Source: Anaerolineaceae bacterium
GTDB taxonomy: Bacteria; Chloroflexota; Anaerolineae; Anaerolineales; Anaerolineaceae
Assembly: GCA_016841525.1 (NCBI GenBank)
Contig: JAENYZ010000003.1
Coordinates: forward strand, 124,001 to 188,000
Reading direction: 5' to 3'
Length of the DNA: 64,000 nt
Part shown: piece after piece, positions 55,084-57,826 of the stretch
Numbering within the stretch: the first letter of the stretch is position 1
Layout of the letters: each line of letters opens with the position of its first letter
The notes under the pieces: model-generated
What the model saw: only the letters and a program-made list of their open reading frames with translations
What the model was told of the DNA's origin: nothing
Database searches by the model: none
Program-made: the position numbers and the translations under genes

Positions 55084-55652
55084 AGTTTTATTGTATCTTA
55101 ACAGGTGGATGGTGATGGCAAATGATTTTAATTCAAGACGGGAGACAGGAGACCGGGAACGGTAAACAGAGACTGATTTTTATTGTGTTGTTAGAGAAGA
55201 TGAAACTACAAAGATAAAATTTTATAGTCCTAACCCTCGCCAGGGCAGGTCTCTCACTCCGGACGTCTTAGAACAGAAGTTAAGAGTTATTAATAATTTA
55301 GATTTGTTTATTTCTCTGTTGAGACTCAATTGATTAATGTTCGGCGGGATGAAAACCGCATCCCGCCCTACAAAAATCCATCACTCGTAGGGTGCAGTTC
55401 AATCTTCACTGCATCACCAACGGTATACTACCAATATAAACCTTGTCTGATTAAATGTGTTTGGATTTGAACGCTCTACCAAATTTATTGCTGGCTGACC
55501 AAATATTCATTAAACATAAGTCTTTCGGGCTAAAGCCCCTCACTCCAGAAAACTTTCTCGCTTTTCACCATTCACCACTCACCATTCACTATAAACAATC
55601 ATTGCTCTCTCCATAAGTGACGTGGTAAACTTCATTGAACAGGAAGAAAACC
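55084..55652. other. Gene-free region between holB and chlD
   Basis: Contains GCGGGATG/CATCCCGC hairpin (about 55341-55364) of the same kind as at 50700-50780, GGGCTAAAGCCC, CTCACTCC elements and a short array of CACCATTCAC units (55566-55592). No gene and no clear promoter was seen. Confidence 0.6.
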
Positions 55653-56822
55653 ATGGAAAAATCGATTATGCGAGTAATCTATCCCTTTACTGCCATCGTC
55701 GGCCAAAAACGTATGCGTCGTGCGTTGATCTTAAATGCCATCGACACACGCATCGGCGGCGTGTTAATTCGCGGCGAACGCGGTACGGCAAAATCCACTG
55801 CCGCCAGGGCGTTAGCGGCGCTGTTACCACCTGTCCAGGTTGTCCAGGGCTGCCGTTTTGGATGCGATCCCAGGAAACCCATTTCATGGTGTACTGAATG
55901 CCGAGAACGTTTTAAAGACGATCAAGATGTTCCGGTTGAAACCCGGCAGACACCTTTTATCAACCTGCCAATTTCAGCAACGGAAGACCGGGTTGTCGGC
56001 ACGCTGGATATCGAAAGAGCGATTCAAAAAGGTGAACGCCATTTCGAACCCGGTGTACTGGCATCTGCCAATCGGGGGCTCTTATACATCGACGAAGTAA
56101 ACCTGTTGGATGACCACGTTGTTGACGTGCTGCTTGACTCGGCGGCCATGGGGATGAATATCATTGAACGAGAGGGAATCTCCTTTGCACACCCAGCGCG
56201 CTTCATCCTGGTGGGGACCATGAACCCTGAAGAGGGAGACCTGCGTCCGCAGTTATTAGACCGCTTTGCGCTCTCTGTCGAAATTCACGGCATTTTAGAA
56301 CCCCGCCAGCGGGTCCAAATTATGGAGCGCAACCTGGCTTTTGAAGCCAACCCGGAAACCTTCCGAAAAGAATGGCTCCCCATGGAACTGGAACTTTCAG
56401 AAAAAATTGCCCAGGCGCGAAAATTGGTTGACCGCGTACGCTATACCAGCCGTGACCTTCTGGTGATTGCAGACCTGACGGCTAAAATGCAGGTGGACGG
56501 CCATCGTGCCGACCTTGTGATTCTCAAAGCGGCACGTGCACATGCAGCATTTGAAGGCCGTGAGACCATCAACCCTCGTGATATCGCCCTGGCTGCAGAG
56601 CTTGCACTGCCCCATCGCGTCAAAGCCGGCCCTTTCAGGCACTCAGAAATGGGCGTTACACAGCTTGAAGAGCAAATTGAACAGCTCAAAGGTGCCGCCT
56701 CGGAAGGTGCGCCTGCACCTGAAAAGGAACAGAACGCCACTGAAGAGGAAACGGCTCAAAAAAAAAGTCAGGCACCCCCCATATCGAGATTAGCGACGAA
56801 CCCGTTGGACCCGAGTCCGTAA
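55653..56822 (+). CDS. chlD: Chelatase small subunit (ChlI/BchI-type AAA+), frame-0 product of chlD
   Basis: In the zero frame this gives a 389-residue AAA+ protein: RGERGTAKSTAARAL (Walker A), a Cys-rich insertion GCRFGCDPRKPISWCTEC, LLYIDEVNLLDDHVVDVLL (Walker B), GTMNPEEGDLRPQLLDRF (sensor 1) and a helical C-terminus. It ends soon after an A9 run. The D-type VWA part follows in the -1 frame without a start codon of good quality, so the same gene can make both a small I subunit and an I-D fusion. Such subunits power metal insertion (Co or Mg) into tetrapyrroles. AGGAAG six bases before ATG sets the start at 55653. Confidence 0.9.
   Translation: MEKSIMRVIYPFTAIVGQKRMRRALILNAIDTRIGGVLIRGERGTAKSTAARALAALLPPVQVVQGCRFGCDPRKPISWCTECRERFKDDQDVPVETRQTPFINLPISATEDRVVGTLDIERAIQKGERHFEPGVLASANRGLLYIDEVNLLDDHVVDVLLDSAAMGMNIIEREGISFAHPARFILVGTMNPEEGDLRPQLLDRFALSVEIHGILEPRQRVQIMERNLAFEANPETFRKEWLPMELELSEKIAQARKLVDRVRYTSRDLLVIADLTAKMQVDGHRADLVILKAARAHAAFEGRETINPRDIALAAELALPHRVKAGPFRHSEMGVTQLEEQIEQLKGAASEGAPAPEKEQNATEEETAQKKSQAPPISRLATNPLDPSP
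56757..56767 (+). promoter_or_regulatory. chlD: Probable programmed -1 frameshift site (C-A9-G)
   Basis: Zero-frame codons are CAA AAA AAA AGT; slipping one base back gives AAA AAA AAG, which enters the frame of the VWA domain. A Shine-Dalgarno-like GAGGAA lies at 56745-56750, about 8 bases upstream, the place where such sequences stimulate -1 shifts. A small hairpin GGAC-CCGA-GTCC follows at 56808-56819. Confidence 0.7.
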
Positions 56823-57778
56823 ACCCATCACGTCAGGATATCTTCCAGGACGCAACCGCACATTGGTGGGACGGGGGACAGAAGATCAAGCCCGGTGAAA
56901 CTTTTGAACCGCGTCGACTTGACACACCCCTTGACAATATGATGCGAAAACAAAGCGGCCGCCGGTCGCAGACGCAGACCGATCGCAAACGCGGCCGGTA
57001 TATCCAATCACGTCCTGCGAACGGCAATCCGGAAGACCTGGCATTTGATGCAACAATCCGGGCTGCTGCGCCATTCCAGAAGGCTCGCGAACAAATTCGT
57101 GAAGAAGAAGATATTGCTTTCGCTGTCCGCAGGGAAGATTATCAGCGCAAAGTCCGCGTCCGCCGGGCGTCCAACCTGATTCTTTTCCTGGTGGATGCCT
57201 CCTGGTCAATGGCTGTAGCAGAACGCATGGCAGCTACAAAAGGGGCGATTCTTTCACTATTGACCGACGCTTACCAGCGGCGCGATCGTGTCGGATTGAT
57301 TGTATTCCAGAAGGATCGCGCAACCCTGGTTCTGCCCCCAACAAATTCCGTATTATTAGCACAACGCGCCCTCGCCGATATCCCTGTCGGCGGCAAAACG
57401 CCCTTAAGTGCTGGCTTAACCATGGCTTACCAGGTTTTGAAAAGAGAAAAAACGCTTCACCCCGATGTGCTGCCGCTGCTGATCATCCTAACAGATGGCG
57501 CCGGCAATGTTTCCCTGGAAGGGGGATCTCCGCAGGCTGAAGCCCACAAAATGGCTGACCAGATCGCAAGTGAGGATATTCGCACCGTTGTCATCAATAT
57601 GGAACATGAGGCTTTTGATCAGGGTCTGGCACAAGCCCTTGCTGAACATTTGGATGCACCTTGCTATACCCTGGCGGACTTGCGCAGTGAGACCCTGTAC
57701 CGGGCTGTACAAAATGAAATTTATGCCGGTCCAGGTGCAGGGAAAGAGATGCAGCCGAAGGATGATGGTAAGAAATAG
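56759..57778 (+). CDS. chlD: Chelatase D-type region: acidic linker + VWA domain, -1 frame part of chlD
   Basis: Read in the -1 frame from the A9 run, this adds 337 residues and gives an I-D fusion of about 708 residues, the normal size of single-frame ChlD-family cobaltochelatase subunits. It starts SGTPHIEISDEPVGPES, has a basic stretch (GRRSQTQTDRKRGRY) and a VWA domain (LFLVDASWSMA for the MIDAS site, LIILTDGAGNVSLEGG). An internal ATG at 56939 has no ribosome-binding site and would cut off the conserved linker. ChlD-family genes are known to use programmed frameshifting to make two subunits that work with CobN. Confidence 0.85.
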   Translation, partial: KKKSGTPHIEISDEPVGPESVNPSRQDIFQDATAHWWDGGQKIKPGETFEPRRLDTPLDNMMRKQSGRRSQTQTDRKRGRYIQSRPANGNPEDLAFDATIRAAAPFQKAREQIREEEDIAFAVRREDYQRKVRVRRASNLILFLVDASWSMAVAERMAATKGAILSLLTDAYQRRDRVGLIVFQKDRATLVLPPTNSVLLAQRALADIPVGGKTPLSAGLTMAYQVLKREKTLHPDVLPLLIILTDGAGNVSLEGGSPQAEAHKMADQIASEDIRTVVINMEHEAFDQGLAQALAEHLDAPCYTLADLRSETLYRAVQNEIYAGPGAGKEMQPKDDGKK

Positions 57779-57795
57779 TGGGAACCCTCACCCTG

Positions 57796-57826
57796 CCCTC
57801 TCCCTTGCGCTAGGGAGAGGGTTTTT
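57796..57826 (+). terminator. Intrinsic terminator of chlD
   Basis: CCCTCTCCCT (57796-57805) / AGGGAGAGGG (57812-57821) with a six-base loop and five T residues, 18 bases after the stop. A second hairpin of the same type (CCCTCTCCCTTG / CAAGGGAGAGGG, about 58100-58133) shows that it belongs to a repeat family. Confidence 0.85.

Follow-up and report, generated by a model that had tools for sequence, protein, structure and literature searches.

Does a single chlD-like gene, lying in a genome of the Anaerolineaceae, give rise to two proteins, one with and one without a VWA domain, by slippage at a run of adenines, and, if so, what would these proteins be for? The question is raised by a locus of the window, i.e., the whole 64 kb stretch of DNA that was analysed, which belongs to a genome of 3.2 Mb in 9 contigs (97.3% complete). 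The earlier note stated that programmed frameshifting in chlD is known from other prokaryotes, and this is borne out by published work on what are called fs-chlD genes, which includes cases from Anaerolineaceae and Brevefilum fermentans (Antonov 2013 NAR, PMC3711429; Kuznetsov, Milenkin and Antonov 2022, PMC9227772). It is very likely that the window holds an fs-chlD gene of this published kind, with two subunits obtained via a slip on nine adenines; that -1 slippage is the source of the two products is, as a part of this reading, even more probable.

Layout of the gene and its two predicted products

The 0-frame ORF (55653-56822; all features given here are on the + strand) runs from ATG 55653, which follows a likely ribosome binding site (AGGAAG, 55641-55646), to TAA 56820-56822 and encodes 389 aa. 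Towards its end lies the A-run proper (A9, 56758-56766, within a C-A9-G at 56757-56767), the sole run of at least nine A or T in the window. The VWA part is encoded in the -1 frame relative to the 0-frame; this frame is open from 56744, directly after a TGA (56741-56743), and closes with the stop codon 57776-57778. A slip at the in-frame heptamer A_AAA_AAA (56759-56765) would pass into the -1 continuation (56765-57778) and yields a product of 708 aa without gap, in agreement with the length of about 708 residues first predicted. The two frames overlap over 57 dual-coding nt (56766-56822), where the 0-frame tail (SQAPPISRLATNPLDPSP, then the stop) lies over the -1 linker. Directly 3' of the gene, the intergenic stretch 57780-57826 contains a sequence that looks, by eye, inverted-repeat-like and terminator-like (CCCTCTCCC...GGGAGAGGG).

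Profile and solved-sequence matches identify the unshifted product as a ChlI-like AAA+ ATPase with a C-terminal tail of its own. Alone, this 389-aa part scores 411.8 bits against TIGR02030 (ChlI equivalog), under the cut-off of 466.95, and also matches TIGR02442 under its cut-off; its nearest solved sequence is ChlI 8osf (E 1.5e-105), and its Walker motifs look intact by eye. The joined 708-aa product scores 790.9 against TIGR02442 ("putative cobaltochelatase"), above the cut-off of 779.45, and 448.1 against TIGR02031 (ChlD equivalog), under the cut-off of 499.55. Its VWA (integrin I-type) domain (57179-57685) matches PF00092 and PF13519, as well as BchD 2x31 (E 8.9e-21), and carries DASWS, GGKTPL, and LTDG, which we take to be MIDAS-like motifs. 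Among named records, the one closest to the VWA part, at 98% identity, carries the label Brevefilum sp., while a record labelled B. fermentans is only 66% identical; the host is thus probably a member of a Brevefilum-like genus of the Anaerolineaceae for which record labels disagree.

In the proposed mechanism, normal reading through A9 would end at the stop at 56822 and give the 389-aa AAA+ protein (I-type subunit), while a fraction of expression events would slip -1 at A_AAA_AAA to give the 708-aa AAA+VWA protein (D-type subunit). The two proteins, with their common AAA+ domain, would presumably assemble into a mixed AAA+/VWA ring; their ratio, too, is inferred.

Conservation of the -1 arrangement in the order

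A search of 101 order genomes for the VWA part gave matches in 92 of them (58 of the 62 of good quality), a few of these matches being weak, and the junction was fetched for 90 of the 92. The VWA frame is -1 at 89 of these 90 junctions, +1 at one (L101), and fused with the AAA+ frame at none; L101 is a divergent paralogue whose overlap lacks the A-run. The -1 frameshift joining AAA+ to VWA, as proposed at the outset, is thereby confirmed in its frames and found in the relatives, as is the slippery site, whose conservation the earlier note had suggested checking: the 89 loci carry A9 (56 loci), A10 (21), A7 (10), or A8 (2). The run is followed at short distance by the 0-frame stop (median 5 nt; at most 12 nt in 66/89 loci), and runs of at least 7 A are otherwise rare, with only 1 in 84,200 nt upstream of the junction (up to 970 nt in each of the 89 relatives) versus 89/89 at the junction itself. 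Within the genus, all 14 junctions have A9 in an identical codon phase, and in the 10 relatives with A7, the run is invariably in the A_AAA_AAA phase (10/10). A set of 80 named loci gives a similar distribution (VWA in -1 in 76, in +1 in 2, and in the same frame in 2), but it overlaps the order set, and many of its members are probably the same genomes and hence not independent. The gene may not be universal in the genus, because the VWA part is missing in 2 of 16 genomes, namely G001 (66% complete), which has only a fragment, and G012 (92%), which is without a close copy.

The four named loci that depart from -1 have similar sequences (L119, L120, L125, and L134), among which A8, A9, and A10 alternate along with the frame of the VWA part. 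Such variation could be polymorphic, an artefact of assembly, or a trace of transcriptional slippage.

Selection on the short product

The 0-frame tail was analysed in 14 of the 16 genus genomes, G001 and G012 being left out. Counted from the last codon of the run, its length is exactly 57 nt in 14/14 genomes, with the consensus S-x-x-x-(P/H)-x-S-x-L-A-x-N-P-(L/M)-D-P-S-P at its end. When changes are counted on the tree of the 14 genus loci (Fitch), the overlap shows, for 0-frame codon positions 1/2/3, 13/14/44 changes. A segment of 57 nt at -114 gives 26/8/87, and that just 5' of the run, which is a variable linker, gives a less clean 55/27/69, while the next 57 nt past the 0-frame stop give 9/72/17; the switch in periodicity therefore falls at the 0-frame stop rather than at the slip site. 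Proportions in the overlap differ from those of the region read in the -1 frame only with a chi-square p = 4e-32 (0 of 1e6 simulations), changes being treated as independent, and mean per-site agreement across the overlap within the genus reaches 0.88 for frame 0, against 0.76 for frame -1. Since the frame-0 wobble pattern persists to its own stop and does not flip at the slip site, the short product is under selection, and both reading frames are selected in the 14 genus loci. Outside the genus, the 0-frame of the 75 -1 loci stops 0-26 nt past the run, which is why the long tail of the genus is best taken to have been gained by overprinting of the linker.

These data bear on two explanations that would dispense with a slip altogether. 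A-runs are error-prone, and the frame differs in 4 of the 80 named loci, so that one may ask whether a sequencing or assembly error in the homopolymer hides a gene that is truly fused. The agreement of 89 of 90 relatives on the same -1 arrangement rules this out for practical purposes, and so improbable a reading also sits badly with the 0-frame stop found no farther than 12 nt from the run in 66/89 loci and with a frame-0 periodicity that holds through the tail. Alternatively, the VWA part could be a second gene, started separately by coupling and without any frameshift, as both frames are well conserved and an ATG is present at 56939. This ATG is, however, the first ATG, GTG, or TTG of the VWA frame and lies 171 nt past the run, while -1 periodicity starts at 56823 and the matches of relatives start even earlier; conserved -1 coding thus precedes 56939, and separate initiation would lose conserved residues. 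In addition, no stop interrupts the -1 frame as far back as the run itself at 89/89 loci, or across the start of the run at 75/89. Two separately started genes are therefore very unlikely, though not quite to the degree of a sequencing error, and -1 slippage is the reading retained below.

Fused genes that keep the A-run outside the order

Forty further loci from the class and phylum were picked by hand, and their same-frame subset is rich in one family (f33). The VWA part is in -1 in 16 of them, in +1 in 1, and in the same frame in 23. The earlier note took plain fused relatives as evidence against frameshifting, a criterion that does not hold as worded: none occurs among the 90 order junctions, but they do exist in the class and phylum, where 18 of the 23 same-frame loci keep an A-run at the junction and the other five are without it. 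In f33 (L224, L229-L243), AAA+ and VWA are fused in all 16 genomes listed with a VWA match, A8-A10 being kept in loci of 56-65% GC, and all 16 genomes match PF02514 (CobN/ChlH). A -1 slip would reach a stop in 1 codon in 15/16 of these loci (4 codons in L242), which suggests, judging from sequence, that f33 would be the reverse setting of the switch, with -1 slippage making the short form. A +1 change would also stop early, within 2-6 codons in 13/16 loci, and transcriptional slippage would therefore serve equally. Two loci of the same class as the window (L211 and L212) also have a fused chlD with A7 or A9 kept, where a -1 slip would stop in 9 codons.

What drives the slip

A Shine-Dalgarno-like GAGGAA, present at 56745-56750, had been put forward as a stimulator. 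A motif of the GAGGA type is found in only 3/14 genus members and 20/89 relatives, and anti-SD pairing 5' of the run shows no excess over synonymous shuffles (mean z -0.05, n=89), leading us to reject this stimulator. Downstream RNA structure other than pseudoknots was scored over 30-81 nt past the run against shuffles. No structure is apparent at the A9-10 loci (n=77), with mean z of +0.01 to +0.38 over eight settings directly past the run, nor in the window itself (z +1.41). The A7-8 loci (n=12), on the other hand, tend to have structure directly past the run (mean z -0.91 to -1.82 over the eight settings), fading farther out (-0.47 to -0.72 at 120 nt and -0.07 to +0.11 at 240 nt). This relation between run length and structure is a pattern rather than proof, because the A7-8 loci are small in number and in part related to one another.

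These data fit transcriptional slippage as well as slippage of ribosomes on a long bare run. We consider it reasonably likely that the slip is mainly ribosomal in the genome of the window; of note, a 9-A reporter of another member gave 40% frameshifting in E. coli (PMC3711429). Transcriptional slippage would involve RNA polymerase gaining or losing A's at A9, with mixed mRNAs that, by normal reading, give the same two proteins. The lack of downstream structure at A9-10 loci, which make up 77/89, together with that of an SD signal across all 89, leaves room for such a mechanism in the window, and dnaX of Thermus thermophilus is reported to undergo transcriptional slippage at 9 A (PMC3711429). 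The early stop after a +1 change in f33 goes in the same direction, as do the near-identical L120 (A9, VWA in the same frame) and L134 (A10, VWA in +1), a pair that would not be served by -1 ribosomal slippage alone but in which the A9/A10 difference may be an assembly error. Against it, the phase of A7 is A_AAA_AAA in 10/10 relatives, and the structure tendency of the A7-8 group points to ribosomes in that group. On balance, a transcriptional origin is possible but rather unlikely, and a mainly ribosomal slip is preferred.

Function: a chelatase or another AAA+/VWA machine

The two products had also been described as chelatase subunits. This stands insofar as the joined product passes TIGR02442, but becomes doubtful when the rest of a chelatase is looked for: the search for cobN proposed in the earlier note yielded no match to CobN/ChlH (PF02514) in the genome of the window, 97.3% complete, or in any of the 101 order genomes, and HemB has no match in the genome of the window or in any of the 16 genus genomes, 8 of which are at least 90% complete. 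In a phylum-wide sample of 251 genomes, PF02514 matches 44, as against 0/101 in the order. One could instead suppose that the pair is a genuine chelatase for cobalt or magnesium, its large subunit being either missed or borrowed. The TIGR02442 match and the HemB found in 20/101 order genomes speak for this reading, which is improbable in view of the PF02514 survey and the 0/16 result for HemB in the genus. We think that the target is probably other than the classical chelatase reaction, and would be some other protein or metallocentre rather than a tetrapyrrole. By analogy, the products may form an AAA+/VWA remodelling pair with another target, for which RavA-ViaA and CbbQ-CbbO are presumably the relevant parallels.

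No separate ChlI was found in the genome of the window, where P0001 has, as its best remaining AAA match, one of 30% identity. Four other genomes (G018, G022, G040, and G056) show, among the matches listed, another AAA match that shares 63-71% identity with the ChlI part and is perhaps a separate chlI alongside fs-chlD. Published work on fs-chlD reports four Anaerolineaceae with both fs-chlD and a separate chlI. It also names B. fermentans, described as being without both pathways and the large subunit, and gives the function as unknown (PMC9227772).

Gene neighbourhoods were compared at 81 loci (the 80 named loci and the window), one of which yielded no chlD frame on the strand that was read. 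Of the 73 loci with an upstream neighbour, 59 have it on the opposite strand, and the commonest upstream family (27/73) looks S1-like by eye, though a 90-aa piece of it gave no confirmation in a Pfam scan. On the downstream side the neighbours vary among the loci, so that they give no clue to function; with no conserved partner adjoining the gene, an operon partner was rejected as a guide. Elsewhere in the genome of the window (G000:C5, 710-771 kb; L001-L005, L007, L008), a full comM/yifB-like gene is accompanied by several incomplete same-strand copies that match it at 75-85% identity over 245-578 nt, possibly as a result of repeated integration into comM.

Taken together, and as a tentative picture about as likely to be wrong as right, if not slightly more so, the gene would encode an order-wide AAA+/VWA machine that has ceased to be a chelatase, with a recoding switch kept throughout, a genus-specific tail gained by overprinting, and opposite settings of the switch that yield the same product pair within the phylum.

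Comparison with known systems

The kind of gene described here is already known, frameshifted chlD having been reported for Brevefilum and other Anaerolineaceae (PMC3711429, PMC9227772). What is added is the selection on the short product, the absence of detectable stimulators, and the order-wide absence of the large subunit. In their available portions, the two papers make no mention of a selected 0-frame tail, of the pattern linking run length and structure, of a HemB survey, or of the inverted arrangement. These additions show, on evolutionary grounds, selection acting on the short product of an fs-chlD gene itself. They also split lineages between short runs with some structure and long bare A-runs, making the question of ribosomal or transcriptional slippage directly testable. 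Furthermore, an I/D motor is retained in a survey of 101 genomes in which its namesake subunit was not found, and its real target could be searched for in cultured Anaerolineaceae.

As in published fs-chlD, a single gene has an A-rich site between AAA+ and VWA and requires a -1 shift, and three features by which such genes can be recognised are present, namely different frames at the A-rich site, conservation (89/90), and selection on both products (14 genus loci). As in the published stage-1 fs-chlD species, no large subunit was found in the host. Downstream structure is called usual for fs-chlD in PMC9227772, whose Figure S4 is stated to show the B. fermentans signal; in this respect the window differs, being without such structure.

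The gene is also reminiscent of dnaX (tau/gamma), where an A-rich slip site allows synthesis of two AAA+ proteins, one short and one long, that begin with a common N-terminus. Slippage in the E. coli gene produces the short form and is stimulated by an SD and a hairpin (PMC3711429), whereas here it would make the long form, with neither SD nor hairpin detectable; the reverse setting proposed for f33 is closer to dnaX in that the slip would make the short form. Lastly, the AAA+ and VWA domains belong to the same families as those of magnesium chelatase ChlI/ChlD and cobaltochelatase CobS/CobT. Those pairs work with ChlH or CobN, for which no counterpart was found here, and, in contrast to them, the I and D types would both come from one gene, with a single AAA+ domain common to the two proteins.
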